NCBI GenBank assembly: GCA_029860345.1
Contig: JAOUBJ010000016.1
Span: forward strand, 62,001-126,000
Origin: Candidatus Zixiibacteriota bacterium
GTDB taxonomy: Bacteria; Zixibacteria; MSB-5A5; GN15; FEB-12
Length of the DNA: 64,000 nucleotides
Reading direction: 5' to 3'
A program made the position numbers and the translations under genes. The notes beneath the pieces are model-generated. The model did not search any database. It saw nothing but the letters and a program-made list of their open reading frames with translations, and had not been told where the DNA came from. This document shows, one piece after another, positions 4,147 through 27,452 of this stretch; the stretch's first letter is position 1; every line of letters starts with the position of its first letter.

Positions 4147-5787
4147 ATGTCGCTGGGACTGAAATTATACATCTCGCTGTTCTTGGTGATGTTCATCGGC
4201 CTGAGTGTCTTCACCGTCCTCACCATCACTGATCAAAAGCAAGACATGTTGCAACTGGTTCGGCAAAGCGCAATTCGCACCACCGAACTCATCGAGAGTT
4301 CTATCCACTACAGTATGTTGATAAATCGAAAAGAAGATATTGATCAAATCTTCAAGAATTTCGAGACGATGTCCGGGTTTGAAGTGATTCGGATCTACGA
4401 CAAAACGGGCAGGATCATCTTTACTACTCGACCGGACGAAAAGGATGGTCAAGTAGCCATTACATCAAGGGCGTGTCAGGTTTGTCATCAGGCGACGAAG
4501 CCGTTGAAATCGGTGGGGACAACGCAACGCCAACGTATTGTCAGGGCCGCCGAGGGCGGTCACGATGTTCTCGCTCTGACGCAACCGATCAATAACGAAC
4601 CGTCCTGCGCAATCGTTGGGTGCCATGTTTCACTTGAGGAGCGAACCGTGCTCGGGGTCCTTGATGTACAGATGTCACTGGAAACAGTTTACGCCAATCT
4701 GGCCAGGAACCAGCGTCAGACAGTAATCGTATCGGTCATCCTGGTCCTAATCGTTCTTACCGTTGTTGGTGTACTCATCTACAGTTTGATACTTGTTCCC
4801 GTGCGTACTCTCAGCCAGGGGACCAAGGCTATTGCGAAAGGTGATCTGAGTTACAAGATACCCATAAGGTCTGCCGATGAGATCGGTGAACTGGCCAGCT
4901 CGTTCAACAGAATGACCGAGGAACTCAGGAAAGCCCACGACGAAATTACCGAATGGTCGGCGACGCTTCAGGAGAAGGTCGATCAGAAAACCGAGGAACT
5001 GCAGCAAATCCAGACTCATCTGGCCCAGGTGGAGAAAATGGCCTCGCTGGGCAAACTGGCGGCGACAGTGGCCCACGAACTGAACAACCCGTTGGAGGGT
5101 ATTCTGACATATACGCGTCTGACACGGAAACGTCTGGCTGAGAGAAGAATCACGCCGGAGTTGCTTTCGTCGATCGAAGGGGATTTGTCAATAGTCTGTG
5201 AAGAGACACTGCGCAGCGGCAGTATTGTCAAGAACCTCCTTCTGTTTTCCAAAAGGGAGATGCGAGAGTTTGCATCGCGGGACGTGAAACACATTGTTGA
5301 ACACGGCCTTCAGTTAGTGCAGCATCATCTGGAGTTGAATGAGATCACGCTGGTCACGGTGTTCTCTGACGAGCCGATCGAGGCAGTCTGCGATCGAAAT
5401 CAACTTCAACAGGCGCTGCTGGCCCTCTTTATGAACGCCGTCGAGGCTATGCCCCAGGGAGGACACCTTACAGTTGGCGTGCTCGAACTGAAAGACTCAG
5501 TTAGGATTTCGATTCAGGATACCGGGTGCGGGATTCCAACGGAGTTTCTTGCTCACATATTCGAACCATTCTACAGCGGCAAAAAGGGAGGCAGGGGTGT
5601 TGGGTTGGGGTTGTCGGTCGCATATGGTATTATTGAAGCACATAGCGGCCGTATCGAGGTAGAGTCCACTGTGAACCAGGGCAGCACCTTTACCGTCGAG
5701 ATACCAAAACGGCTCCCCGCCGACAATAGCGCGGCCGAGTCAATATCGGCATCAGGACAAATAGAAGGAGACAGACGTGGGTCATAA
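4147..5787 (+). CDS. Sensor histidine kinase with periplasmic haem-type motifs
   Basis: Order of domains: TM1 (about 7-27), a sensor region (28-190) with one CXXCH (CQVCH, 110-114) and one CX4CH (CAIVGCH, 154-160), TM2 (about 193-217), HAMP (to 270), a short coiled coil, HisKA with the phospho-acceptor H310 in VAHELNNP, and an ATPase domain with DTGCGIP and GVGLGLS glycine boxes. The two Cys-His motifs suggest covalent c-type haem in the sensor, as in haem-bearing redox or gas sensors. It overlaps the response regulator by 11 bases. Placed after the cytochrome operon, it likely reports electron-carrier or redox state to that operon. The CX4CH spacing is unusual but used by some cytochromes. 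Confidence 0.9.
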   Translation: MSLGLKLYISLFLVMFIGLSVFTVLTITDQKQDMLQLVRQSAIRTTELIESSIHYSMLINRKEDIDQIFKNFETMSGFEVIRIYDKTGRIIFTTRPDEKDGQVAITSRACQVCHQATKPLKSVGTTQRQRIVRAAEGGHDVLALTQPINNEPSCAIVGCHVSLEERTVLGVLDVQMSLETVYANLARNQRQTVIVSVILVLIVLTVVGVLIYSLILVPVRTLSQGTKAIAKGDLSYKIPIRSADEIGELASSFNRMTEELRKAHDEITEWSATLQEKVDQKTEELQQIQTHLAQVEKMASLGKLAATVAHELNNPLEGILTYTRLTRKRLAERRITPELLSSIEGDLSIVCEETLRSGSIVKNLLLFSKREMREFASRDVKHIVEHGLQLVQHHLELNEITLVTVFSDEPIEAVCDRNQLQQALLALFMNAVEAMPQGGHLTVGVLELKDSVRISIQDTGCGIPTEFLAHIFEPFYSGKKGGRGVGLGLSVAYGIIEAHSGRIEVESTVNQGSTFTVEIPKRLPADNSAAESISASGQIEGDRRGS

Positions 5788-7129
5788 TAAGAACGGCCAG
5801 TCGTTGAGTATCTTGATAGTAGATGACGAACATAGTGTTCGCGATTCTCTCACCAAGTGGTTCAAGGAATTCGGCTACACTGTCGAGGCGGCGTCTGATG
5901 CTACGAAGACGCTGCAGAAACTGAGGCGGGGGCGATGGGACATCGCGCTTTTGGACGTCAAACTTCCCGGCATGGATGGCATAGAGCTGAACCGCAAGCT
6001 AAAGGAGATTGATCCGGACCTCACCACTATTATGATAACCGCCTATGCCTCGGTGGACACCGCCGTCAAGTCGCTCAAAGATGGTGCAGATGACTACGTG
6101 ACAAAGCCGATAGACCCCGATTACCTGGTTCATCTGGTCAGCCGAATAGGTGATCGCAAGCGGCTCCAGACAGAAAACGTGCAACTCAAGGAACGCATCC
6201 AGGAGTTGTATGAGTACGACCAGATCATAGGTGATAGCCCGGCCATCCATCGTGTCCACGAATTGGTCCGAGCGGTGGCGCCTACCGACACGACGGTGAT
6301 GATCAGGGGAGAAAGCGGTACCGGCAAAGAACTAATTGCCCGATCAATTCACTCGGCCTCGCCGCGAAGGTTCTTCCCTATCATCACGATAAACTGTGGA
6401 GGGCTGACACCCGGTCTCACCGAGAGTGAGTTTTTTGGACATGAGAAAGGGGCATTCACCGGCGCCGTTTATCGTCGTAAGGGGAAACTGGAAATGGCCA
6501 ATACCGGTACGGTCTTCCTTGACGAGATCGGTAACATTGACGCCAAGACGCAGTCGGATCTGCTCCGTGTTATTGAGACTAAACAGTTTACCCGGGTCGG
6601 CGGTAACGAGATTATCAATGTAGACTTCCGCCTGATCTGTGCCACCAATAGCAATCTTGAGCACGCTGTGGAGAAGGGAGAGTTTAGAGAAGATCTGTAC
6701 TATCGTTTGAATGTCTTTTCTGTTCAGGTGCCGCCGCTCAGAGAGAGACGATCGGACATCCCGATACTGGCCAATCACTTTCTCAAGAAACTGGCCTCCA
6801 GCATGAACAAAGCGGTCAGCGGTTTCTCTGAGGATGCCCTTACCTTACTTACTAATCATGATTGGCCGGGGAATGTCAGGGAACTTCACAACGCTATCGA
6901 GCGTGCAGTCGTGGTGGCCGAAGGACCTAAAGTCGCAGGCGCATGCCTGCCGATTCTCAATGGGAAATCAGACACGCGGCAGGGCATGAGCATGGAATCG
7001 GTAGAGAGAATCCACATACAAAAAGTGTTGGATCAATCTGCGGGAAACGTCACTCATGCAGCGGACATTCTTCAGATAGATAGGACGACACTGTACCATA
7101 AGATCGAAAAATACGGACTGCGCAGATAA
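5777..7129 (+). CDS. NtrC-family sigma-54 response regulator
   Basis: 450 aa with GTG start inside the kinase gene. Receiver domain (LLDVKLPGMDG, phospho-acceptor D60), sigma-54 AAA+ domain with Walker A GESGTGKE, the sigma-54 contact loop GAFTGA and Walker B VFLDEIG, and a C-terminal Fis-type helix-turn-helix (HAADILQIDRTTLYHKIEKYG). It is complete and should activate sigma-54 promoters when phosphorylated by the upstream kinase. I saw no convincing GG-N10-GC promoter directly before 4147 or 3703; its targets, perhaps the cytochrome operon, may lie outside the window. Confidence 0.95.
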   Translation: MGHNKNGQSLSILIVDDEHSVRDSLTKWFKEFGYTVEAASDATKTLQKLRRGRWDIALLDVKLPGMDGIELNRKLKEIDPDLTTIMITAYASVDTAVKSLKDGADDYVTKPIDPDYLVHLVSRIGDRKRLQTENVQLKERIQELYEYDQIIGDSPAIHRVHELVRAVAPTDTTVMIRGESGTGKELIARSIHSASPRRFFPIITINCGGLTPGLTESEFFGHEKGAFTGAVYRRKGKLEMANTGTVFLDEIGNIDAKTQSDLLRVIETKQFTRVGGNEIINVDFRLICATNSNLEHAVEKGEFREDLYYRLNVFSVQVPPLRERRSDIPILANHFLKKLASSMNKAVSGFSEDALTLLTNHDWPGNVRELHNAIERAVVVAEGPKVAGACLPILNGKSDTRQGMSMESVERIHIQKVLDQSAGNVTHAADILQIDRTTLYHKIEKYGLRR

Positions 7130-7131
7130 GA

Positions 7132-7662
7132 GTGACAATTCAAATTGTTCCATTACGATTCGAGGATGCATCCCTACTGGAGGCAGTTTCTGCGGCCTTG
7201 AAGGAAGTTCTGGGAGCGAAGGTGGCGATTGCCCAAAACGGTTTTTCCTTGGAAGAGGGGCGGGATCGATTTAGAAACCAGGTCGATTCCACTTGGGTTC
7301 TCTCGCACCTTTTGGAAACATATCCGAAGTGTATCGACAAGGTCTTAGGGATCACCGAGCAGGATCTCTTTATACCGGTTCTGACATACGTGTTCGGTGA
7401 AGCTGAGCTTGGCGGCCGAGTAGCGGTTGTATCGTCGCACCGTTTTCGAGACGAATTGTATGGGCTACCGGCTGAACCACAGAAGATGCGTGACAGACTC
7501 ATAACGGAATCATTGCACGAACTGGGCCACACCTTCGGCCTGACCCACTGTCATAGCACCGAGTGCGTAATGCGCACCAGCTGTTGTGCTGAGGAAATCG
7601 ACTTCAAACCCGCCAGGTTCTGCTCACCCTGCTCAGAACGCCTGCGAAGGGCAAGCACATAG
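7132..7662 (+). CDS. amzA: Archaemetzincin-type zinc metalloprotease
   Basis: 176 aa. The family signature is complete: HELGHTFGLTHC (H129, E130, H133, H139, C140), then C145 and the Met-turn CVM (M147), and CSPC (C164, C167) about 16 residues on, matching HEXXHXXGXXHCX4CXMX17CXXC of archaemetzincins. One catalytic Zn sits on the three His and a structural Zn on four Cys. The GTG start lies two bases after the regulator stop, so it is probably co-transcribed with the two-component pair. There is no signal peptide, so it acts in the cytoplasm. Archaemetzincins are common in archaea and patchy in bacteria; bacterial substrates are unknown. Confidence 0.88.
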   Translation: MTIQIVPLRFEDASLLEAVSAALKEVLGAKVAIAQNGFSLEEGRDRFRNQVDSTWVLSHLLETYPKCIDKVLGITEQDLFIPVLTYVFGEAELGGRVAVVSSHRFRDELYGLPAEPQKMRDRLITESLHELGHTFGLTHCHSTECVMRTSCCAEEIDFKPARFCSPCSERLRRAST

Positions 7663-8077
7663 TCTCTCTGTAGTGAGACACGATCCCGACCAGCCATAAT
7701 AATCCTAAGATGTAACCATTGTCTGTGATACATCTAACTTATGGATAAACCAGAAGATATGGAAAACGCGGGGTTGGTTACACGAATTTCGCAACTTTGT
7801 GATGTATGAGCAAGTAACCTCCTATGGTAGCCTCCTGGCAATTCTGTGAAGCGGAAAGCCCGGCCTCCCCTGGAGCCTTCAGATACCTAAGGCTGGCCGC
7901 GACCGACAGAGCCCTTGAACAGACAACCTCGCGAGAAGAGATATTGGTCCGGTTAAAGGCAAAGTCCTCAGGGCGAGTGGCCTGGTGAATGAACAATCTT
8001 CATTTGGAGGGCTCCAAGCTTTACAGTCTTTCCCGCGTTAAGATAAACATCGAGTTCACCCAACATCACGGTAAGAC
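7663..8077. other. Intergenic stretch, possible 54-codon frame at 7824-7988 (+)
   Basis: About 415 bases without a gene I can support. A 54-aa frame on the plus strand (7824-7988, MVASWQFCEA...) has a plausible amino-acid make-up but no ribosome-binding site and no family I know. An overlapping 72-aa minus frame (7778-7996) is no better. There is no clear terminator hairpin. Confidence 0.3.
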
Positions 8078-13749: not shown

Positions 13750-14505
13750 ATGAGCTGGGTCATGCTGACAGTGAAATCGGCACAACGAAAACGGTTTGAA
13801 GAGGATACCTTTCCTCACCTTGAGGCAGTGTGGAGAAGCGCCAAGTGGCTTACTATGCGCCGAAGCTACGCTGAGGATCTGGTGTTCAAGACGATGACAA
13901 GGGCCTATCACTCGTGGAGCGGCCCCGGTGACATAGTCGGCAGCAAAGCGCGGTTATTCCGATCCCTGGTTAGGGAGTTCCGCAAAGGTGGCAATCGAAA
14001 GCACACAATCTTCCGGTTTCTTGATGAGAACGGCAGGGCCACGCAGGGTACCGACGACCGCGGTCAGCAATACAGAGTTCCATCAATCGACCGCGAGGGA
14101 CTTTCGCTGTTAGCCAGGATCTCCGACAGATCTGTAAAAGGAGCAATAGCCCGTCTCAGACCGGAGTCCCGGCTGATTATGATTCTGTTGTTTCGTGAAC
14201 GGTTCTCGCATGCGGAAATTGCATACATAACCGATCTCCGGGTGGAATCGGTCAAATCGAAACTCGGCCGGCTTCGCCGACTGATTCCGCAATACATATT
14301 ACACTCGCTGCAGCGTGGCCACATTTCCGCAGCCGAAACAGACAACAATCCAATGTTCCAACTGCAAACGGGCTCAGTTGACTCAGAGCATAAGTTCAGC
14401 TCCTGGGGTCTTCCCGACTCGAACTCTTCTGACCATATCACCAGGGCCGCTGCCGATAGTTGGGAGAACGAGGGCGGAGCGCTTATTGGTCGGCTCGGAG
14501 GATGA
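13750..14505 (+). CDS. ECF-type RNA polymerase sigma factor
   Basis: 251 aa. An N-terminal sigma-2-like region (FPHLEAVWRSAKWL, AEDLVFKTMTRAYHSW) and a sigma-4-like region (LRPESRLIMILLFRERFSHAEIAYITD, VKSKLGRLRRLI) are separated by a linker. The C-terminal 70 residues after the sigma-4 helices are polar and of unknown role; extra tails occur in ECF classes that are not controlled by a classical anti-sigma factor. It ends six bases before the radical SAM gene, so the two are likely co-transcribed. Confidence 0.85.
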   Translation: MSWVMLTVKSAQRKRFEEDTFPHLEAVWRSAKWLTMRRSYAEDLVFKTMTRAYHSWSGPGDIVGSKARLFRSLVREFRKGGNRKHTIFRFLDENGRATQGTDDRGQQYRVPSIDREGLSLLARISDRSVKGAIARLRPESRLIMILLFRERFSHAEIAYITDLRVESVKSKLGRLRRLIPQYILHSLQRGHISAAETDNNPMFQLQTGSVDSEHKFSSWGLPDSNSSDHITRAAADSWENEGGALIGRLGG

Positions 14506-14510
14506 CATTC

Positions 14511-16076
14511 ATGCGCAAGCTCTCCATTGGCATAATTGATCTCGTGGCCAAAGCTCCGACAAAAACCTTGTGGATGCGCGTAATGGGAGCGAACCTGGCC
14601 AGTATTATGCCGCAGGCTGTAGCGATCTGGTGTGAAGAGCAGGGCCATGAAGTTACGCTGGTCACATATACTGGCCGAGAAGACCTCCTCAATGAACTGC
14701 CGGGCAAAGTGGATATGGTTTTCATCGGATCTTTCACCGAATCGGCGCTGCTTGCGTACGCTCTCAGTAGCCTGTTCAGGGCTAAAGGCACAGTTACTGT
14801 ACTTGGCGGGCCTCATGCACGGTGCTACCCGCAGGACGCTCAGAAGTACTTCGATTATGTCTTGGGATTCACCGACAGGACACTGATCCAGGAAATCACA
14901 GGAGATTGTTCCCCGCATCGCCCTCACGGTTTACACCTGTCAGCAAGCGGGCATCCTGTACAAATGCCCAGTGTAAGAGCGCGCTGGAAGTACATTGAAC
15001 AGACGTTGAGGAAAGCACCGTTTATCAAGTTGATCCCACTCTTGAGCAGTTTGGGTTGTCCGTATGCCTGTGACTTCTGTATTGACTCATCAGTTCCATA
15101 CCAACCGTTGGACGTTGAAACGATGAAGGAAGATCTGCGTTTTTTACTCGGCAAGTTCAAGCGACCTCGGGTGGCGTGGCACGATCCAAGTTTTGGCGTT
15201 CAGTTTGACAACTGTCTGGATGCGATTGAAGAGGCTGTTCCGCCTGGGAGCGTTGATTTCATTGCTGAGTCCACATTGTCGTTGCTTTCGGAGAAGCACA
15301 TTCTGCGCCTCAAACACAACGGATTCAAGGCACTCTTGCCCGGCATAGAGTCGTGGTTTGATCTCGGCAATAAATCCAGGGCGGGCAAAACCATGGGATC
15401 GGACAGGGTTCTGAGAATATCTGAACAAATCAACATGATTCTGAGACATGTTCCTTATGTGCAAACCAACCATATTGTGGGTCTTGACGGTGATGAGGGA
15501 CCGGAGCCCTTCGAACTGACCAAGCGTTTCCTGGATATTACGCCCGGGGCGTTCCCCGCCTACTCTTTACTGTCAGCATTCGGGCAGGCGGCACCGCTTA
15601 ATCTGACTTTTCAGCGGGACAATAGAGTCCTCCCATTTCCCTTTCATCTACTCAGTAACAGTCAGATGAATGTAAGGCCCCGGCATTACTCTTGGCCGGA
15701 GTTTTACGATCGTCTGATTGATCTGACTAAGTACTCGTTTTCTCCTCGCATGATACTCAAGCGTCTCTTGGCCAATAGGGAGATGATTCCGAAGTGGTTA
15801 AACGTTGTGCGAGCAGTTTCATCGGAAGGCGCCGGTCGGATCCGATACTTCACCGAAATACGTCGGCTATTAGATACGGACCGATCGCTCCGACGGTTCT
15901 TCGAGCAGGAGACGACTGATGTTCCTCAGTACTTCATTGAGAAGATTCGTCGCGACCTCGGACACTTCTGGGAATGGTTACCGGAAGGGGCCATCACTCA
16001 CGACCCCAATGCCTATCTTGTGTCACAGCAGAAGAAGTGTTCCTTCTGCATCACTTCAGATACCGGAGCAGCCTGA
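14511..16076 (+). CDS. B12-binding radical SAM protein
   Basis: I take the ATG at 14511 (521 aa) because it follows GGAGG at 14496-14500; the longer frame from 14460 lacks a site. Residues 1-140 form a cobalamin-binding Rossmann-like domain (VWCEEQGHEVTLVTYTG, MVFIGSFTESALL, VTVLGGPHA) and the radical SAM core has CPYACDFC with C183, C187 and C190 ligating a [4Fe-4S] cluster. The B12 motif DxHxxG is not evident, as in other class B relatives, so base-off binding is likely. Class B enzymes perform methylations or ring rearrangements. The substrate is unknown; no typical natural-product partners are adjacent. Confidence 0.85.
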   Translation: MRKLSIGIIDLVAKAPTKTLWMRVMGANLASIMPQAVAIWCEEQGHEVTLVTYTGREDLLNELPGKVDMVFIGSFTESALLAYALSSLFRAKGTVTVLGGPHARCYPQDAQKYFDYVLGFTDRTLIQEITGDCSPHRPHGLHLSASGHPVQMPSVRARWKYIEQTLRKAPFIKLIPLLSSLGCPYACDFCIDSSVPYQPLDVETMKEDLRFLLGKFKRPRVAWHDPSFGVQFDNCLDAIEEAVPPGSVDFIAESTLSLLSEKHILRLKHNGFKALLPGIESWFDLGNKSRAGKTMGSDRVLRISEQINMILRHVPYVQTNHIVGLDGDEGPEPFELTKRFLDITPGAFPAYSLLSAFGQAAPLNLTFQRDNRVLPFPFHLLSNSQMNVRPRHYSWPEFYDRLIDLTKYSFSPRMILKRLLANREMIPKWLNVVRAVSSEGAGRIRYFTEIRRLLDTDRSLRRFFEQETTDVPQYFIEKIRRDLGHFWEWLPEGAITHDPNAYLVSQQKKCSFCITSDTGAA

Positions 16077-18800: not shown

Positions 18801-19523
18801 TTACCAGGCAATGTTCTCCAATGCAATACGTAACTGACCGGCAGTCTTGAATCTCTTCCGGATCAGAGTGTGTTTGCGCCCCATCACGATCCTCCGTATT
18901 TCATCCCCCGCCCTGGTGTAGCCGGACTGTCCGCCGATCAGTTCGTACAGTAATGACACGAGGTCAATAACATCATACTGCATCTTCTCACGAGTGGGCC
19001 GTCCCAGATCGAAGAAATCCAGCAGACGTACCTGGAAGGTCAGCCCGACCCGCTTAACCAGAATGTTGTCTGAATGGATATCGCCGTGATACTCTCCAAG
19101 GAAATGAATCGGCTCCATACCGACAGCCATTGAGTGGAGTAGATGAAGCGCCTCAAAGGGTGCCAGACGCTTACGAGGTTGCCGTTCAAGGAATGCCGAA
19201 AGCATCTCGCCACCGCCGAGATCGGAAACCAGAATCTCGACCTGCTCACGTCCTACCCTGGCCATGTCTCGATGATGGTATTGGGTAATGATGGGACAGT
19301 GTCTTAACTTGTGGAGCTTCTTCGCATACCGCTTGAGTTGCCTGTCGGTCAGCCGTCGACCTTCGTAGAAGACCTTGGCGGCACGCAGAATGCCGGTGCG
19401 ACGTTCTTCGACTTTGTACACCTCGCCCTCCCAGCCACTGCCGAGAAACTCCACTACAAAGTAATTCCGACCGAGGGTCATTCCGGGGCGCAGATCGAAA
19501 TACGGCTCAGGCTTGTTAGTCAT
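18801..19523 (-). CDS. Ser/Thr protein kinase-like protein, last gene of the peptide-ligase operon
   Basis: 240 aa. Gly-loop FLGSGWEGEVY, the ATP-anchoring Lys in RAAKVF, catalytic HGDIHSDN (loop Asp and Asn kept, Arg absent) and a metal-binding DFFD in place of DFG. It is short for a Hanks-type kinase and lacks an evident activation segment; the C-lobe is compact. No transmembrane segment or sensor domain. It overlaps the preceding gene by four bases (19520-19523), the last of three such overlaps, so it belongs to that operon. It may phosphorylate a protein partner or, like small kinases of this fold, a metabolite. Confidence 0.8.
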   Translation of the reverse strand: MTNKPEPYFDLRPGMTLGRNYFVVEFLGSGWEGEVYKVEERRTGILRAAKVFYEGRRLTDRQLKRYAKKLHKLRHCPIITQYHHRDMARVGREQVEILVSDLGGGEMLSAFLERQPRKRLAPFEALHLLHSMAVGMEPIHFLGEYHGDIHSDNILVKRVGLTFQVRLLDFFDLGRPTREKMQYDVIDLVSLLYELIGGQSGYTRAGDEIRRIVMGRKHTLIRKRFKTAGQLRIALENIAW

Positions 19524-20206
19524 GTTACGCTCCTACACCACTGCTGGAAGGCACTCAGCACACAATGCCTCTTGTCCTCATCGGGCATGAACGACGCCCG
19601 CGACAACTCCAACTGCATCCACGGCAGCTCCGCAGCGTGTGAACGAATGATATGTCCCCCTTTGAACGGGTCGTTGATAGATACGTCGCATTGTAATGAT
19701 TCCCTCAGACAGTCAACCATAGACTCCAACCACTCCTGTGAACAGGTGCCGTCACCATTGCTGAGGCAGATCGGAGGACGCTGGACTCCAGCGTCGGTGC
19801 AGATCGGCGGCGCCTCTGCGGCCATAGTATGACAATCGATGCCGAGAATGACATCACTACTGAGGCGGTTAAGTTCTTGGTGGTATGGTCGGTAGTAATG
19901 ATCAAGGAGGAAAGCGATCTGTTCTTCTGCCAGAGGCTCCCGGTAGATAGGAACCTTGTAGATGGTTTCCGTCTTAACTATACCATCACTGGCCCGGTCA
20001 TTTTCCGGGCGATTCATATCAACAAAGGCACGGGCGATTTCGGTCGTCACCAGGGACGTGACCTCATCGGCAATCGCGAAAATCTCTCCGGCACCTTCAT
20101 CACCATCCTCTACTATCTGTTCCGGTGTCAGCAGGTTGATCTCTTTCAGCTCGGCCGGAATATCCAGTCCGGCATGGGGAACGGATATGAGCAGCGGCAG
20201 ACTCAC
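19520..20206 (-). CDS. N-formylglutamate amidohydrolase family protein
   Basis: 228 aa. SVPHAGLDIP at the N-terminus, DMNRPENDR, YRPYHQELNRL, and GIDCHTM follow the family in order; the His and Asp/Glu residues within them are the expected Zn ligands. The classic enzyme (HutG) removes formate from N-formylglutamate in histidine breakdown, but no hut genes are near. Family members also sit beside ATP-grasp ligases in peptide-modification clusters, which fits this operon better. Four-base overlaps on both sides. Likely substrate is an N-acyl or gamma-linked glutamate-type amide; this is inference. Confidence 0.85.
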   Translation of the reverse strand: MSLPLLISVPHAGLDIPAELKEINLLTPEQIVEDGDEGAGEIFAIADEVTSLVTTEIARAFVDMNRPENDRASDGIVKTETIYKVPIYREPLAEEQIAFLLDHYYRPYHQELNRLSSDVILGIDCHTMAAEAPPICTDAGVQRPPICLSNGDGTCSQEWLESMVDCLRESLQCDVSINDPFKGGHIIRSHAAELPWMQLELSRASFMPDEDKRHCVLSAFQQWCRSVT

Positions 20207-21804
20207 GGTCGGGGTCCTCCTGCGGCACCGTCGCGGCGGGGATCGGCAACGCCGATATAGTCGCTTCCCTCACGCAGTATGAGTTGCACGCAACCCATGT
20301 AGAACGAGTAGGGGTCCCGAATGTCGATCTCGAAGCCGTGGTCTTCCAGGTATTCCGGGATGTCACTACGCATGCGGGAGGCTTCCAGGGAGATTTTACC
20401 GCCGATGGAGCAGTAAAGGCGCGGGGCATTCACCGCTTCCAGCGGCGACTGATTTCGCAGCCTGAGAAGCACCTGGAGAATCGACGCCGTGATGCGCTCG
20501 CTGCCGGGTGATCCGATTACGAGCCAGGGAACGCGCCCCTGAAACACTATTGTGGGGGCGACGCTGGCCCATGGCACGGCGGCGGGGCGAAGGTGGTAAG
20601 GATGCGACATATCTTCGTGGTCGAAAGCCATTAGGTAGTTGTTATACAAGAACCCAAGGTCCTCAGCGGCGCAGCACGAGCCGAATACACGTTCAATAGA
20701 CTGCGTCAGACTCACCGCATTGCCGAATCTGTCCATGACCGACAGATGCGTGGTCTCTCCGGCCGTGCGAATCCGTTTGGCTATTCGCTTACCGTAGTCC
20801 GGGCTGAGCATCTTATGGTCCGATACTTGCGCGTAGTAGTTCGGATCGTAAGGCCGATCACGGCGATCTCTATAGGCCTGACGCATGACTCTGGCCACCG
20901 CCAATACGGACCGCGGTGTGTCGAGCCGCAGCATCTTTTTGGGCAATTGGCTGACGATATTGAGCATCTCAATCAGAGTGCGGCCGGCGCCTGGGGGAGG
21001 CATAGTCATTACTCTTTTGCCCTCCCACCAACAGGCGACCGGCCGTCTTTCAATCGGCGGCTGAACCTGCGCCAGGTCATCGCGCCTGATCAGCCCTTTG
21101 TTATTGACCATATCCCGGTGGATCGCTCTGGCAATCTTGCCCGTGTAGAAGTCATCGACACCTCGCCGGGCTAACCTCTTGAGGCAGTCAGCCAATGCCG
21201 GTTGCTTGAATCGCTCACCGACACGATAGGGATCGCGTCCTTTCTTGAGAAAATGTCGGGACGCTGTTCCTTGCCTGAGAAACTTCAGTTCACGCCTGGT
21301 CAAGGCATTCAGCAGCGCAGAGACTTCAAAGCCGTCTTCAGCAAGCTTGATAGCCGGTTCGATGACCCGAGGCCAGGGAAGGGTTCCGTACCGGTCAAGA
21401 GCATAAGCCAAAACGCGAGGCGTGGTCGGCACTGTCGCGGCTTTGTACCCTCTTCGTCGTTCCTCTTTCGGTATAGAACCAGGTATGGCCCGATGAGGAG
21501 CGAATGACGAACCATCGAAGACGAACGTTTTCTTGGTTTTGGCCCGGTGCACTATGAGGGCGGTCTGTCCGCCAAGTCCGCACGCCGCAGGTTCGCAGAC
21601 ACACAGTGCAAGCGCAGCCGCCACAGCGGCATCCACGGCGTTGCCATTCTCGGCCAGCATCTGCACACCAGCCTCGGTGGCCAGGTAGTGTTGCGTGGAG
21701 ACCATCCCGTACTTCGACAAGGCGTACCTCTGCGGCTTCCTGATTCTCGGAGATGAAAGCTCCAACGTATCCGAATCAACGTCTGTTCGTGACCTGGGCG
21801 TCAT
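20203..21804 (-). CDS. Cytoplasmic gamma-glutamyltransferase-like protein
   Basis: 533 aa. The N-terminus reads GMVSTQHYLATEAGVQML, GNAVDAAVAAA, CEPAACGLGG, all standard GGT landmarks. The autoprocessing/catalytic Thr is T351 in TTHLSVMD, followed by GNAVSLTQSIERVFGS. Unlike classic GGT there is no signal peptide, so it should act in the cytoplasm. Family members cleave or transfer gamma-glutamyl groups or hydrolyse related amides (for example cephalosporin acylases). It overlaps both neighbours by four bases and probably acts on the same product as the upstream ligase. Confidence 0.88.
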   Translation of the reverse strand: MTPRSRTDVDSDTLELSSPRIRKPQRYALSKYGMVSTQHYLATEAGVQMLAENGNAVDAAVAAALALCVCEPAACGLGGQTALIVHRAKTKKTFVFDGSSFAPHRAIPGSIPKEERRRGYKAATVPTTPRVLAYALDRYGTLPWPRVIEPAIKLAEDGFEVSALLNALTRRELKFLRQGTASRHFLKKGRDPYRVGERFKQPALADCLKRLARRGVDDFYTGKIARAIHRDMVNNKGLIRRDDLAQVQPPIERRPVACWWEGKRVMTMPPPGAGRTLIEMLNIVSQLPKKMLRLDTPRSVLAVARVMRQAYRDRRDRPYDPNYYAQVSDHKMLSPDYGKRIAKRIRTAGETTHLSVMDRFGNAVSLTQSIERVFGSCCAAEDLGFLYNNYLMAFDHEDMSHPYHLRPAAVPWASVAPTIVFQGRVPWLVIGSPGSERITASILQVLLRLRNQSPLEAVNAPRLYCSIGGKISLEASRMRSDIPEYLEDHGFEIDIRDPYSFYMGCVQLILREGSDYIGVADPRRDGAAGGPRP

Positions 21805-23960
21805 TTCCCTTTGTTCCTTACTTGGCCCGACAGGTACTGCGCCAGCAGCAGTGTTCGCTGCATCAGACTGAGTCTGAGCACGGCTTCCTGCGGCGTATCA
21901 ACATCTCGCGCCACCGGTCCGAGGCCGCAGACTACGGCTTTCGATGACGGAACCAATCCGGCCACTGACGGGGAGAGTGACGACTCACGCTCCAACGGAA
22001 TCTCCCACTCGTCGGCCACAGCTTGCAGCTCACTAAAGAGCTGACGGTTTCTCTTGGTCCGCTTCATGGCTGGTCGATCTGAGAGCAGTTCCAGACTGCA
22101 CTGAAACTCCTTCGTCTTTATTATCTCGCGCATTTGCGTTTCGACCGCATCAGCTTTAGTAATGTCAAGAAAACTGACCAGTATGGTTGAGGTCGTTCGA
22201 TGAGGCAGAGACTCAGGGTATGACTCCGTACCCAGATCGCCGGTCGCCACGGCCACCCTACTTTCCTTGGAGGTTAGCTTGGCGAATTCGTCGAGGCAGA
22301 AAGTGGTCCACCTTAACACGCCGCGTTTCCGGTAGACTTTTCCCAGTCGGCGCGGTTCACCCACGACGGTGAATCGGTACTTCCTCCGTCCGCGGCGTTG
22401 CGTAACAACGCTGCTTTCGAGATTACCCGGACGCAGAACGAGGACCTTCGCGGCACGGGCAACGGCGTTCTCTACTATCTTGTGGCTGTAGCGGTAATCG
22501 CGGCCTTCATCGGTATAGTAAAGAAGGGCCATCGGCACGTTCTGAAGTCGTCTTATGCTTCGCAGGGCGCGCAAGGCGAACTGCATACACACCAGTGGGG
22601 CCCTTGAGGACGCGATACCTTCGCCGTAGAGCCACTCGGGATCGCGGCGAAACATGACTGCAGGCGCACTCAGGGGTGTCGGAACATCCAGATGCCCAAC
22701 CAAAAGTATACCCTTGTCAAGTCCGGCTTTTGACTGCCATGTCCAGACCGCTCGCTCATCGGTGAGGTCTGGATCAGGTGTCAGAGCCATTTCCTCACAG
22801 AATTTCGACAGTCGGCGCACCGAATCCGCCAGGCCCGTAGGATCGGAGGTCCGGCTGGACACTTGCGTCCATGCTTGAAGACGCTTCTCGATTTGGTCAC
22901 GCCGCTGTACCAGGTAGGAAGTAAGTCTCTGACCGATGTTCTTAGTCGGCTTGACCATGGTCGGTGGACTGGGTGTACCGAAGTACCTGGCCGAAGCCAC
23001 ATCAACCAGCCGACACACGAGAGCACCAAAATCCAGCCCGGCTTCTGCCGCCGCTATCGTGTAGGAGCCATGCTCTCCCATGCTTGGCAGGCTGTTTATC
23101 TCCAGCACATAGAGGTTACCCTCACCATCAAGACGCATGTCGACCCGAGCGCAGTCATAACAGCCGAGAGCAGAGAAGGCCTTCTGTGCAATCTCCTTAG
23201 CAGTTTCAAGCACATCGGGATCAAGTTTCGGAGGACATTCCCAACTTATTTCTCTGCCCGACTCGCGCATCTTGTCTTCCATTGTATAGATGGCGGGGCC
23301 AGTATCGCCGAATAATAACTCAACCGGCGGCAGGGTTTCCGGCGGGTTGTTTCCCAGTAGACCGATGTTGATCTCACGCCCCTCAACGTACTGCTCAACC
23401 AGCACCGACTGTCTGAACTCGTCGAAGATGGCTGTAACGCCTTCGCGCAGCTCAGCTTCATTCTTAACCACTCTAAGACCGAACGAAACCGCTTCATTCT
23501 TCGGTTTCACTATCATTGGGAACGGCAACTCAGGCAAATCCGAGTCGGGAGTCTGCATAACATTATACTCGGGTGTGGGGACGCCATTCTGCTGGAAGAT
23601 CATTTTGGCTACAACCTTGTCCAGTGCCAGAGAGTGCGCCAGCGGGCCAGACCCGACGTAAGGAACACCGACCATCTCCAGAATACTTGGCACGTGCGTG
23701 TAGCGCGCCTGACCCTGAATGCCGTAGGATACATTGAAGACGAGGCCGGGCAACTCCCCTTTGACGACGCGCGGCATGAACTGCTCCAGGTTGTCCACGA
23801 GGTCCTTATCTCCCTCGATAGCTCGAACTTGGTGGCCACCTTTGCGAAGACCGGCGGCGATGCGGTCGATGGTCTTCATGCCGATCTTCTCCTGATTCGG
23901 CATTCCGAACAGATTGATCACACGTTTGCTGTCACGGTTGTAGACGATGGCTACTTTCAT
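21801..23960 (-). CDS. ATP-grasp (Ddl-like) ligase fused to a degenerate M20 peptidase domain
   Basis: 719 aa. Residues 1-330 are a D-Ala-D-Ala ligase-type ATP-grasp: MKVAIVYNRD, GVPYVGSG, FPMIVKPKNEAVS, LVEQYVEGREIN, and a Mg/ATP loop ending EINSLPSMGEHGSY. From about 340 a helical linker leads to an M20/ArgE-like domain (400-719) with GILLVGHLDVP (H423, D425) and YYTDEG. The bridging Asp of M20 enzymes appears as Ser in GEGIASSRAPL, the usual Glu pair is reduced to EG, and the final His of AHTPDE is Asp (VDTPQE). The peptidase half is probably not a standard di-zinc hydrolase. First gene of a four-gene overlapping operon. Ddl itself is normally about 300-360 aa without such a tail. Confidence 0.85.
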   Translation of the reverse strand: MKVAIVYNRDSKRVINLFGMPNQEKIGMKTIDRIAAGLRKGGHQVRAIEGDKDLVDNLEQFMPRVVKGELPGLVFNVSYGIQGQARYTHVPSILEMVGVPYVGSGPLAHSLALDKVVAKMIFQQNGVPTPEYNVMQTPDSDLPELPFPMIVKPKNEAVSFGLRVVKNEAELREGVTAIFDEFRQSVLVEQYVEGREINIGLLGNNPPETLPPVELLFGDTGPAIYTMEDKMRESGREISWECPPKLDPDVLETAKEIAQKAFSALGCYDCARVDMRLDGEGNLYVLEINSLPSMGEHGSYTIAAAEAGLDFGALVCRLVDVASARYFGTPSPPTMVKPTKNIGQRLTSYLVQRRDQIEKRLQAWTQVSSRTSDPTGLADSVRRLSKFCEEMALTPDPDLTDERAVWTWQSKAGLDKGILLVGHLDVPTPLSAPAVMFRRDPEWLYGEGIASSRAPLVCMQFALRALRSIRRLQNVPMALLYYTDEGRDYRYSHKIVENAVARAAKVLVLRPGNLESSVVTQRRGRRKYRFTVVGEPRRLGKVYRKRGVLRWTTFCLDEFAKLTSKESRVAVATGDLGTESYPESLPHRTTSTILVSFLDITKADAVETQMREIIKTKEFQCSLELLSDRPAMKRTKRNRQLFSELQAVADEWEIPLERESSLSPSVAGLVPSSKAVVCGLGPVARDVDTPQEAVLRLSLMQRTLLLAQYLSGQVRNKGK

Positions 23961-24172: not shown

Positions 24173-24763
24173 TTGTGGCGAAAAAAGGGAAAATACCTTT
24201 ACTACCATTGCACTGGTATGAAGCCCGGTGGATGTGATCTCGTGTTTGTCAAAGACGCAACTGTTGTCGAACAGTTTGCGGACAGGTTGGGACCGTTAGT
24301 TCTCACCAATTCACAGGCCGACAGAATCCTTAGTGGATTAGCCAAGAGACAGAACAAAAGTCTAACGACGGTAGCCGAAGAAGAAAAGCGAATAGATCTG
24401 CGGCTCGGACAAATCAACAAGTGGTCGGAGCAAGCGTACTATGACAAGCTTGATGGAACGATCTCAGCCGAACATTGGGCTACTCTACCGCATAAGTGGG
24501 ATACTGAACGCATTCAACTTCAGGCTCAATTGAACACGCTACAAAGCGACAATGCGAACATCCTACCGACAGCCCAGAGAATCTTGGAACTTGCGCAAGA
24601 GCTTCCGGCCCTATGGGATAGGCAGAGTCCGTTCGAAAAACGAAAACTGGTTGATTTGCTATATTCGAACTGCCAGCTGGACGGTGCAAGTCTAAGTGCC
24701 ACATACAGAAAACCCTTCAGTTTCATCGCTGAAGGGGCTCAATCTCAACAAAAGCGGGGTTGA
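24173..24763 (+). pseudogene. Large serine recombinase, C-terminal remnant
   Basis: 196 codons: half a zinc ribbon (YLYYHCTGMKPGGCD), then a coiled-coil region (EEEKRIDLRLGQINKW, LQAQLNTLQSDN) and a C-terminal FEKRKLVDLLYSNC pattern typical of large serine recombinases of phages and integrative elements. The resolvase catalytic domain, with the Ser nucleophile, and the first CXXC of the ribbon are missing, with no frame continuing upstream. The stop codon falls inside the tRNA-like 3' end (24754 on), as expected for an integrase lying at the junction of an element. Not active. Confidence 0.8.
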
Positions 24764-24835
24764 CGAGACTCGAACTCGCGGCCTTCCCGACCAAGGTCGG
24801 GACGTTTTAACCACCTGAACTACTATTTACCACAG
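24754..24835 (-). pseudogene. tRNA-Asp-like copy, broken anticodon arm and acceptor
   Basis: Read on the minus strand: D-arm TAGTTCAGGTGG, then a perfect hairpin TCCCGACC-TT-GGTCGGGA (24785-24802) where the anticodon arm should be, then the T-arm and acceptor 3' strand of tRNA-Asp. The last 31 bases (24754-24784) equal 27378-27408 of the true tRNA-Asp exactly. The 5' acceptor half (TAAATAG) cannot pair with CAACCCC and CCA is absent, so it is not a functional tRNA. It lies about 45 bases downstream of the GIY-YIG gene, in the same orientation. See findings. Confidence 0.75.
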
Positions 24836-25390: not shown

Positions 25391-26878
25391 CTATTCTACA
25401 ACTCCGAATTTGTGATGATCCGAAATAACCCAATGGTCCTCTCTCGGTGGACTCGTGAATTCGCCTAACGATATGTCCCAATTATATCTGCTGCACTTGA
25501 TACTATATTCTCCACTCTTGGCTTGAATGTGATACGTATTGAAACTACGTTGTTTCTTTGTGGGACCTGCGGTTTTGGATGCAGCTCCAGCCATTACGTG
25601 GTAAAACGGTCGAGTACTGAGATTCTGCCCGGTTTTTTCAATGCTCTTTGCTATTTCTATTAATCTTTCTCTTTCATCACGGCTGAACGCGGCGTCAAGC
25701 CTCTGCTGAATATCTTCAAGTTCGTTCTTTCCCAAACTGTCCTCCCTATCAATCCCGTGTTGAGTAAGGAGCTTGAAGACGTTTTTCTCAAATCTACTTG
25801 GATCAGCTAAACCGTTCTTGAATTCCTCAATCAGATCGTGAACAAAGCTACCGTCATCTACCCCAGATGCCCGATTGCGTTTCAATACTGTGGCAGTTAT
25901 GATATTATAAAGGGAAGTGAGTGATCTCTTTCTGAAGATTCCGCGTTTACTTCTGATTTGTTTTGGATACATTTGAATGCCTAAGATTCTTCTGAAGATA
26001 TTCAATAAGTGCCGATTCTTGCCGTTTTTTGACAATTTCTCACCATATGTCGTTGGCGTAATGTCCGAATGATGCTTGTGCCCGCATAGAAACATGTCAA
26101 TGTCACAGGAGAAAAGATCCGTAAATGCTGCCTCAGAATGGCCCAGGTGTAACAGTCTCTCTTTTTTCGCACCGGCTGGCTCAAACAGGTAATGATGTGC
26201 TGCTACTATTTTCAGGCTAGTCGCAAATACTCTGGATGGGATAAACTCCCCGGCGTGGTTTGGAACCTCTAGCTTTCCCTTCATTCCCAACTCAAACCAG
26301 GCCATTATTTGTTTTGATTGTTTACGGTTGAACTCGCCGCGAGCGACTTTGGAGATTGCTCTCTGAGCATTTAGTTTTACTCCGTGTTTTTCCTCTTTTG
26401 GATCTCCAATGTAGCACGTGTCCACATAGACTATGAATAGTGCCCTGTCGCCTTTTTGGATCCAATCATAGCGGCACGAGTTGTCGGGTGTAAACTGGTG
26501 GTGGTCAAAAACATCGTTATATTTTTCTAGGCCCCTTTGCCAGATCGATTTAGCCTTGCCTGTATCTGTAGTGTTGCAGAAGGCGTCATGATTCCCTGGG
26601 ACGATTCCCAATTTATCAGGAGACAACCTGAGGCCAGTTGAAGTGCCATCACCAACTTCGAAATCGTCGAAGAGCCAACTGTGTGCTCTCAAAAGGCTTT
26701 CTTCATCACCCCAATTGGTGAGATCACCGGTTACTATCATTTTATCTAAGTTCGTCTTCTCAACAATTCTCTGGATGTTCTTGAGCTGTTCAATTGAGTG
26801 TGTGTGTTTCCCCCTATAGTGGGCTCCGTGAGAAAAGTGTAAATCTGAAATGTGTCCTAAGATGAACTCTTCTGACAT
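25391..26878 (-). CDS. Calcineurin-like metallophosphoesterase, island cargo
   Basis: 495 aa. All five family motifs are present in order: SDLHF (D12, H14), GDLTNWGDE, GNHDAF, AAHHYLF and GHKHHSD. The first 290 residues form the catalytic domain with two metal ions. The C-terminal 200 residues have a helical stretch (RNRASGVDDGSFVHDLIEEF, and a charged segment with ERERLIEIAKSIEKT) and a final beta-rich part that I do not recognise. By eye it is AT-richer than its neighbours. It lies 19 bases after an HNH nuclease gene inside the tRNA-Asp-bounded segment, a usual site for defence or conflict genes. A nucleotide or nucleic-acid phosphoesterase role in defence is a guess. Confidence 0.85.
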   Translation of the reverse strand: MSEEFILGHISDLHFSHGAHYRGKHTHSIEQLKNIQRIVEKTNLDKMIVTGDLTNWGDEESLLRAHSWLFDDFEVGDGTSTGLRLSPDKLGIVPGNHDAFCNTTDTGKAKSIWQRGLEKYNDVFDHHQFTPDNSCRYDWIQKGDRALFIVYVDTCYIGDPKEEKHGVKLNAQRAISKVARGEFNRKQSKQIMAWFELGMKGKLEVPNHAGEFIPSRVFATSLKIVAAHHYLFEPAGAKKERLLHLGHSEAAFTDLFSCDIDMFLCGHKHHSDITPTTYGEKLSKNGKNRHLLNIFRRILGIQMYPKQIRSKRGIFRKRSLTSLYNIITATVLKRNRASGVDDGSFVHDLIEEFKNGLADPSRFEKNVFKLLTQHGIDREDSLGKNELEDIQQRLDAAFSRDERERLIEIAKSIEKTGQNLSTRPFYHVMAGAASKTAGPTKKQRSFNTYHIQAKSGEYSIKCSRYNWDISLGEFTSPPREDHWVISDHHKFGVVE

Positions 26879-26897: not shown

Positions 26898-27260
26898 TCA
26901 CTGTGATTGTAAGTCGAACAGTCTGAAGTGGTATGTTAAGTAATCGACAAACAGATAGCTCAGAGAATACTCTGGGGTCTTGCCATGACTCAAATTGTTA
27001 CCATCATAATGAGTTACGCTAAGATTCTCAGGATTTATGGCTATTGATCCGTTATCAAATTCAGCATGATGGCTTGGGCACAGTATGATGTTCTCTTCGG
27101 TTCCTTCATGTCCTCCACCTAGAGGGCGAATGTGATGCGCCTCAGCATAGTACTCCCCGTTCGGAAGCAGTATACATTTGCCACAAATCGCATATTTCCA
27201 ATCGAAACGCCGCTTCATCCTTCGAGTGAGGTTCGTGTCGCGAATTTTGCGAGTAATCAC
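26898..27260 (-). CDS. HNH endonuclease, island cargo
   Basis: 120 aa. CGKC early in the chain, EAHHIRPLGGGHEGTEENIILCPSHHAEFD is the HNH beta-beta-alpha-metal core (catalytic His in HHIRPL, zinc Cys pairs CGKC and CPSHH). The N-terminus is basic (MITRKIRDTNLTRRMKRRFDW). The next gene begins 19 bases on, so both are probably co-transcribed. As cargo of a tRNA-flanked segment it could be a nuclease effector with the phosphoesterase, or a solitary nicking enzyme. No methyltransferase is adjacent. Confidence 0.88.
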   Translation of the reverse strand: MITRKIRDTNLTRRMKRRFDWKYAICGKCILLPNGEYYAEAHHIRPLGGGHEGTEENIILCPSHHAEFDNGSIAINPENLSVTHYDGNNLSHGKTPEYSLSYLFVDYLTYHFRLFDLQSQ

Positions 27261-27375
27261 TGTCTATACGGTTCCCCGGGGGAGAGGTGGGTTTCTCCAA
27301 AGCAAGATGTGCCCATTCGCGGTTCAGCCTGATTGCAGTTTAAAGTTAACCCCGGCGCTAACAGGGGACAAAAAA

Positions 27376-27452
27376 TGGCGGGGTTGACGAGACTCGAACT
27401 CGCGGCCTCCTGCGTGACAGGCAGGCGTTCTAACCAACTGAACTACAACCCC
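27376..27452 (-). tRNA. tRNA-Asp (GTC)
   Basis: Acceptor GGGGTTG/CAACCCC with discriminator G and encoded CCA (77 bases). Anticodon arm CCTGC-CTGTCAC-GCAGG gives GTC. T-arm CGCGAGTTCGAGTCTCG. D-arm and variable loop are standard. Its 3' 31 bases recur exactly at 24754-24784, making it the intact copy of the pair. Confidence 0.96.

Follow-up and report, generated by a model that had tools for sequence, protein, structure and literature searches.

A conserved operon of an ATP-grasp/pseudo-M20 fusion ligase and two amide hydrolases, proposed to serve osmotic or ionic balance

Introduction

What does a bacterium make with an ATP-grasp ligase that is fused to a peptidase-like domain and encoded in one chain with two amide hydrolases? 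The question is raised by a locus in a stretch of 64,000 nucleotides from a Candidatus Zixiibacteriota bacterium (GenBank assembly GCA_029860345.1, contig JAOUBJ010000016.1, positions 62,001 to 126,000). We call this whole stretch the window and use its own numbering for the locus. At 18801-23960, four minus-strand open reading frames (ORFs) are chained by three overlaps of exactly 4 bases each. They encode an ATP-grasp/M20-like fusion protein, a hydrolase of the gamma-glutamyltransferase (GGT) family, a hydrolase of the N-formylglutamate amidohydrolase-like (FGase) family and a short protein kinase.

We propose that the operon serves the synthesis and turnover of a small amino-acid amide for osmotic or ionic balance, and that the M20-like half of the fusion is a pseudo-peptidase that acts as docking domain or product sensor. 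The probability of this reading is, in our estimate, roughly one half. The reading is built on computed gene order, conservation, folds, the loss of metal ligands in the M20-like half and of the gamma-glutamyl pocket in the GGT, and gene context. A wider version is more tentative and, on balance, somewhat doubtful, namely that the operon stands for a pathway, present across phyla and so far unrecognised, that yields a new amino-acid amide as osmotic or counter-ion solute. In it, the M20 pseudo-peptidase fused to the ligase, being free of metal, would sense the product, and there would be a genetic link to MscS release channels and magnesium transporters.

Conservation of the operon

Relatives of the fusion were collected by scanning one genome per species with an alignment of the ATP-grasp halves, which yielded at least 526 relatives, of which the best 80 were kept. 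The alignment was required, i.e., a scan of genome contigs with a single sequence found no relative. Taxon names of the homologous loci are the submitters' labels, and some of the bins are possibly contaminated.

Nearly all of the best 80 loci encode the M20 fusion, with GGT and FGase next in line in the same orientation. Sufficient downstream flank was available for 58 loci; 46 of them have the order ligase-GGT-FGase, which places the arrangement far beyond chance, while 5/58 hold ligase and GGT only and 7/58 the ligase alone. The hosts belong to at least a dozen phyla, including Zixibacteria, Planctomycetota, Acidobacteriota, Pseudomonadota, Actinomycetota and Nitrospinota, and the operon is also found in the cultured isolates Thiohalocapsa halophila DSM 6210, Imhoffiella purpurea and Desulfoluna butyratoxydans. 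That is, the gene set is not confined to the genome of the window, since the gene-neighbourhood comparison recovers the three-gene order in many phyla.

A tree of 68 fusions clusters largely by phylum and places the window's sequence with Candidatus Zixiibacteriota (98% support in the Shimodaira-Hasegawa-like approximate likelihood ratio test, SH-aLRT). Within this phylum, a full-length or near-full-length fusion is present in 7/132 genomes (one of the seven is broken off at a contig end, another has an interrupted reading frame), and an FGase of the operon type in 5/129, with the fusion adjoining in 5/5. In a congener (genome G003), some 20 bases separate the fusion from the kinase, and the locus lacks both GGT and FGase. 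This points to the fusion as the core and to hydrolases that can be lost, and it fits a core role of the ligase.

Ligase fusion, GGT and FGase are thus an old conserved unit, while the kinase is an occasional addition: in the neighbour comparison of loci it is absent from nearly all other homologous operons. A first-pass annotation, made from the letters of the window alone, had described all four genes as one unit of amide chemistry. The combination of amidoligase and hydrolases stands, being conserved and widespread. The single four-gene unit stands in part, i.e., all genes are indeed chained by overlaps, but the kinase lies outside the conserved three-gene core. The overlaps themselves are exact as it gave them, according to the ORF coordinates. 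All on the minus strand and 4 bases long, they join the stop of gene 1 to the start of gene 2 (21801-21804), the stop of gene 2 to the GTG start of gene 3 (20203-20206) and the stop of gene 3 to the start of gene 4 (19520-19523).

ATP-grasp ligase domain

Gene 1 (21801-23960, minus strand; 719 residues) encodes the whole fusion, which has orthologues across many phyla. Its residues 1-329 (22974-23960, minus strand) form an ATP-grasp ligase domain of the D-Ala-D-Ala ligase (Ddl) type. The assignment is based on Pfam (PF07478, Dala_Dala_lig_C; 1.6e-37), on the match of the AlphaFold model of this part with Ddl structures (Z about 33) and on conserved residues: among 68 homologues, the ATP/Mg residues K115, K152, R272, D274 and N289 are invariant and E287 is kept in more than 90%. 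The domain shares with Ddl the fold and these ATP/Mg residues; it differs by changed substrate loops and by scores below the NCBIfam Ddl cut-offs (180.9 vs. 243 bits for NF002378, the best model, and 159.6 vs. 245.65 bits for TIGR01205).

A peptidoglycan role of the fusion ligase, i.e., D-Ala-D-Ala formation, was considered and rejected as unneeded, since a separate canonical ddl of 356 residues is encoded elsewhere in the same genome (G000:C2, locus L010). The first-pass annotation had named, as an outcome that would speak against its reading, a ligase making only D-Ala-D-Ala in a genome with no other ddl gene; the presence of L010 shows that this case does not apply.

The M20-like domain

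Residues 340-716 (21813-22943, minus strand) carry a carboxypeptidase-G2 fold without its metal ligands. Pfam reports no M20 match for the window's own fusion and finds PF01546 in 12/20 fusion members. With a profile built from 68 homologues, residues 341-710 match carboxypeptidase G2 (CPG2) at 2e-20. The AlphaFold model of the fusion, computed from the 68-sequence alignment (predicted local distance difference test, pLDDT, 89.7; predicted template modelling score, pTM, 0.82), matches CPG2 (1cg2/6xj5) over residues 340-716 with Z 40, while the next best M20 structure reaches Z 35; a model from eight sequences (pLDDT 50) was not used. Given the profile match and the structural match, the ATP-grasp/M20 fusion named by the first-pass annotation is real despite the silence of Pfam.

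The same annotation had proposed a pathway in which a small gamma-glutamyl or N-acyl peptide is built and trimmed and the kinase acts as switch. Spelled out, the ligase would build the peptide, the M20 domain trim it, the GGT cleave gamma-glutamyl bonds and the FGase deacylate. The families behind this proposal are named correctly according to Pfam, all parts act on amino-acid amide bonds, and the best structural match of the M20-like half, CPG2, is a glutamate carboxypeptidase. The residues of the half itself tell against trimming. In the alignment, the fusion family has S (or T, A or V) in place of D141 of CPG2, G in place of E176, R or N in place of E200 and R in place of the lid residue H229; H385, which was positioned by eye with the help of a shared GP...TP.E motif, corresponds mostly to D, E or N. 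Altogether, four of the five M20 metal ligands are replaced in 71/71 homologues. The first His is kept in 51/71, the Asp of the HxD motif in 71/71 and the catalytic Glu in 69/71; the complete ligand set is found in 0/71. With its metal ligands lost, the domain is unable to trim a peptide by the M20 mechanism.

Other motifs are conserved instead (PEWLYGEGIG.SRAPL, DEGRD, RRGQRKY, PSVAGLV and CG.GPVA). What the half has in common with CPG2, an M20A glutamate carboxypeptidase, is the fold and the equivalent of Arg324 (R629), which is kept in 70/71 homologues. In CPG2, Arg324 holds the substrate carboxylate. Loss of the metal ligands along with retention of this Arg makes binding without hydrolysis the simplest reading, i.e., the alignment points to a pseudo-peptidase with a binding role. 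If true, this would clearly exemplify how a former hydrolase can come to serve a ligase as its binding domain.

The two hydrolases

Gene 2 (20203-21804, minus strand; 533 residues) encodes an N-terminal nucleophile (Ntn) hydrolase of the GGT family (PF01019, G_glu_transpept; 7.9e-114) with a non-canonical substrate pocket. Its catalytic residues T351 and H353 are each present in 67/67 homologues. At the position of E. coli GGT R114, most of the 67 have S, T or a similar residue and none has Arg. N411 is replaced by E in 64/67, Q430 by Y in 65/67, D433 by A in 58/67 and S462 by A in 57/67. That is, of the E. coli gamma-glutamyl pocket (R114, N411, Q430, D433, S462, S463), the operon GGTs keep S463 alone. 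The protein also scores narrowly under the cut-off of the NCBIfam equivalog TIGR00066 (346.2 vs. 357.85 bits). The residues that hold the gamma-glutamyl group are missing, and a gamma-glutamyl product is therefore not indicated. The replaced pocket, the dead M20 half and the rarity of the kinase among homologous operons together render the gamma-glutamyl or N-acyl peptide pathway very unlikely. A further remark of the first-pass annotation, that the GGT lacks a signal peptide, is borne out by inspection by eye, which finds none at the N-terminus.

Gene 3 (19520-20206, minus strand; 228 residues) encodes the FGase-family hydrolase (PF05013; 2.6e-41). Residues H11, D34, D36, D63, N65, R66, H109, D124, H126, N178 and E200 are conserved in at least 95% of 58 homologues. 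With 81.2 vs. 278.75 bits, it stays clearly under the cut-off of TIGR02017 (HutG, N-formylglutamate deformylase), and it has one relative in the PDB (2q7s). The comparison with NCBIfam has a bearing on annotation: by routine, the three genes would receive the names Ddl, GGT and HutG, and each of them fails a test for its name.

Genomic context

If the product is a small amide, what is it for? Neighbouring genes within about 8 kb of the operon were clustered and assigned to Pfam families (0.71 Mb of flank in total). As a background, we used 18 whole host genomes (about 85.6 Mb), which contain 70 MscS, 15 CorA, 31 MgtE and 7 Zn_protease genes. Beside the operon, MscS channels (PF00924) occur in 12 loci of 7 phyla vs. 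0.58 expected, the magnesium transporters CorA in 6 vs. 0.12 and MgtE in 6 vs. 0.26, and retropepsin-like Zn_protease in 6 vs. 0.06; the naive Poisson P values (2e-12, 5e-9, 3e-7 and 5e-11, respectively) are indicative only, since they ignore kinship among loci. These four families are thus enriched about 20-100-fold over the genome background. The count for CorA rises to 7 with locus L051 from the window's own phylum, where it directly follows the FGase. A second MscS-like family (PF05552) is found in 8 loci, CNNM/CorC in 3 and Na/Ca exchangers in 3. The MscS families are the commonest Pfam families among the immediate neighbours, and the matches lie on both sides of the operon and in several phyla.

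Several points weigh against an osmotic role. The window's own operon has no recognised MscS, CorA or MgtE gene beside it, and the role is therefore extrapolated from homologues. Over half of the loci lack all of the listed osmotic genes in flanks of about 8 kb. The relatedness of loci is not part of the Poisson comparison, and many of the records are metagenome-assembled genomes. Moreover, MscS genes are also found clustered with those of magnesium transporters, such that the link of both to the operon may be partly indirect.

This context also bears on a reading in which the module is catabolic, i.e., GGT and FGase degrade acyl-amino acids that are imported or stem from the cell wall, a storage dipeptide is re-formed by the ligase, and the proximity of ion transporters is incidental. 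Hydrolases do make up 2/3 of the core enzymes, and second GGT copies adjoin some of the operons (L056, L085, L099). The neighbour clustering, on the other hand, reveals no conserved amino-acid transporter or catabolic gene flanking the operon, whereas genes for ion channels and magnesium transporters are in strong excess. We therefore consider such a salvage module rather unlikely.

Beside the operon, RimK is found in 6 loci and AstE/AspA in 5. In L056, L058, L066, L086, L109 and L128, RimK, the retropepsin-like Zn_protease and AstE/AspA form a recurrent second amidoligase set.

Such adjoining sets, found in 5-6 loci, speak for a reading of the operon as a system of the RimK/RimB kind that modifies a protein or peptide, in which the ligase adds amino acids, the hydrolases remove them and the pseudo-M20 domain recognises the C-terminus of the target. 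A precedent exists in RimK and RimB, which act on the C-terminus of RpsF (PMC12239564). Against it stand the Ddl type of the ligase, a type that joins free amino acids, and the neighbour clustering, in which the operon has no conserved small target gene. Furthermore, to our knowledge the GGT and FGase families, as far as characterised, act on small molecules. Protein modification is for these reasons unlikely.

Proposed mechanism

From the results above, we infer a ligase activity, a direction for each hydrolase, the nature of the product and its osmotic role. In the amino-acid amide reading, the ATP-grasp half would couple a free amino acid with a second partner that bears an amine in an ATP-driven reaction, using Ddl chemistry with altered substrate loops. 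The CPG2-like half, lacking the two M20 metals, most likely binds an amino-acid carboxylate, in keeping with the retained R629, and serves for docking or for sensing the product. Both hydrolases, the Ntn enzyme of the GGT family and the one of FGase type, may then cut or transfer the amide bonds of the product and thereby recycle it. The product would be a small, dipeptide-like amino-acid amide, plausibly acidic, that serves osmotic or ionic balance, and the kinase appended in the window's lineage may tune the system.

Relation to known systems

Operons of ATP-grasp ligases and amide hydrolases are already known as a kind; the present one is shared by more than ten phyla, and its neighbours predict that many uncultured bacteria use a small solute for osmotic or ionic balance. 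A literature search, with most subscription papers outside its scope, returned no description of the gene set, which is weak evidence. In our view, the chance that the operon represents a new solute pathway is fair.

The rloABC operon (retropepsin, inactive transglutaminase with seven-transmembrane (7TM) domain, ATP-grasp) controls hypo-osmotic tolerance in Pseudomonas aeruginosa (PMC12239564). It is an ATP-grasp and hydrolase operon tied to osmotic tolerance, and the pairing of ATP-grasp and hydrolase is shared by the window's operon. RloC, however, is described as RimK-like, and rlo includes a secreted retropepsin and an inactive transglutaminase (PMC12239564), while according to Pfam the four genes of the window encode neither a retropepsin nor a 7TM or other membrane protein. 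Retropepsin-like genes adjoin some of the homologous operons, and a 7TM protein of RloB type was seen in sister clusters only.

N-acetylglutaminylglutamine amide (NAGGN), a dipeptide osmolyte, is made from the operon asnO-ngg-aminopeptidase (PA3459-PA3461; PMC8070244). Here, too, a ligase and peptide-cleaving genes stand together, and the product is a dipeptide osmolyte. The enzymes differ, i.e., NAGGN synthesis uses the AsnO amidotransferase and the GNAT-type synthetase Ngg, while the window combines a Ddl-type ligase, fused to the dead M20 domain, with hydrolases of the GGT and FGase types. No GNAT or asparagine-synthase domain was found by Pfam in the window's four genes, nor among the recurrent neighbour families. 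The parallels to rlo and NAGGN are analogies and do not imply membership in either system.

In the LysW pathway, LysX, an ATP-grasp enzyme of the RimK-like branch, is paired with LysK, an active and separate M20 deacylase. The pairing of an ATP-grasp amidoligase with an M20 protein is shared, but the window's M20 domain is dead and fused, and its ligase is of the Ddl type. A LysW-like gene is not among the recurrent neighbours of the operon.

Sister clusters without an M20 domain also exist. Locus L048 (G032:C1:29000-44000), from another Zixibacteria genome of the window's family, encodes at 4395-7859 a GGT, an RloB-type 7TM membrane protein and an ATP-grasp protein without M20, the latter being about 40% identical to the window's ligase. 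On Bradyrhizobium plasmids, the sister cluster comprises a radical S-adenosylmethionine (SAM) protein of the KamA type (lysine-2,3-aminomutase, LAM, type), a GGT, a 7TM protein and an ATP-grasp protein without M20. The 7TM protein matches the NCBIfam RloB model ('osmotic stress tolerance membrane protein') at 5e-12 in the 7TM part only, with 45 bits vs. a cut-off of 900; we count this distant likeness in favour of the osmotic reading. An example is L130 (4282-9047), from a conjugative plasmid of a Bradyrhizobium barranii soybean isolate, in which a KamA-family (lysine-2,3-aminomutase-like) radical SAM gene is in line with GGT, 7TM and ATP-grasp genes. This cluster might make a beta-amino-acid conjugate. 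For the operon itself, a beta-amino-acid product was considered and set aside as a lead only, since no KamA-like gene recurs beside the M20-fusion operons. On pNGR234a, a CapA-family protein follows the NGR234 relative of the ATP-grasp protein (L129, 11698-13083); it scores 247 bits vs. a cut-off of 700 for the lasso-peptide Trp epimerase MslH.

Kinase and surroundings of the locus

Gene 4 (18801-19523, minus strand; 240 residues) encodes a short eukaryotic-type protein kinase (PF00069, Pkinase; 2.2e-11), accessory to the operon. K50, HGD148, N153 and D169 are kept in five homologues, with N153 and D169 aligned in all five. Every one of these homologues adjoins the operon; they come from the window's genus, a related genus (L043/L049), a Phycisphaerae bin (L060) and a further bacterium (L119), and in the latter two loci the kinase lies upstream. 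The switch function given to the kinase by the first-pass annotation survives in weaker form: the catalytic motifs are intact and a few other lineages also have the gene next to the operon, which makes regulation possible, although the gene is accessory and outside the core. An identity with the defence kinase MAD6 was rejected due to a weak match (50 vs. 460 bits).

Scans of the operon region for promoters and terminators gave results at or near the level of shuffled sequence. Just upstream of the operon, a 38-base direct repeat, near-perfect (92%), is located at 24747-24784 and 27371-27408, and its second copy is the 3' end of a tRNA-Asp gene (27376-27452, minus strand). Between the two copies lie a gene for a metallophosphoesterase (25391-26878) and, at 26898-27260, a short ORF that is HNH-like by eye. 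An ORF at 24173-24763, recombinase-like by eye and without a Pfam match, terminates at the first copy. Probably, a small element has integrated here at tRNA-Asp. On the other side, a B12-binding radical SAM protein is encoded near the operon (14460-16076, plus strand), and a similar ORF adjoins the operon in a locus from Latescibacterota (L067).

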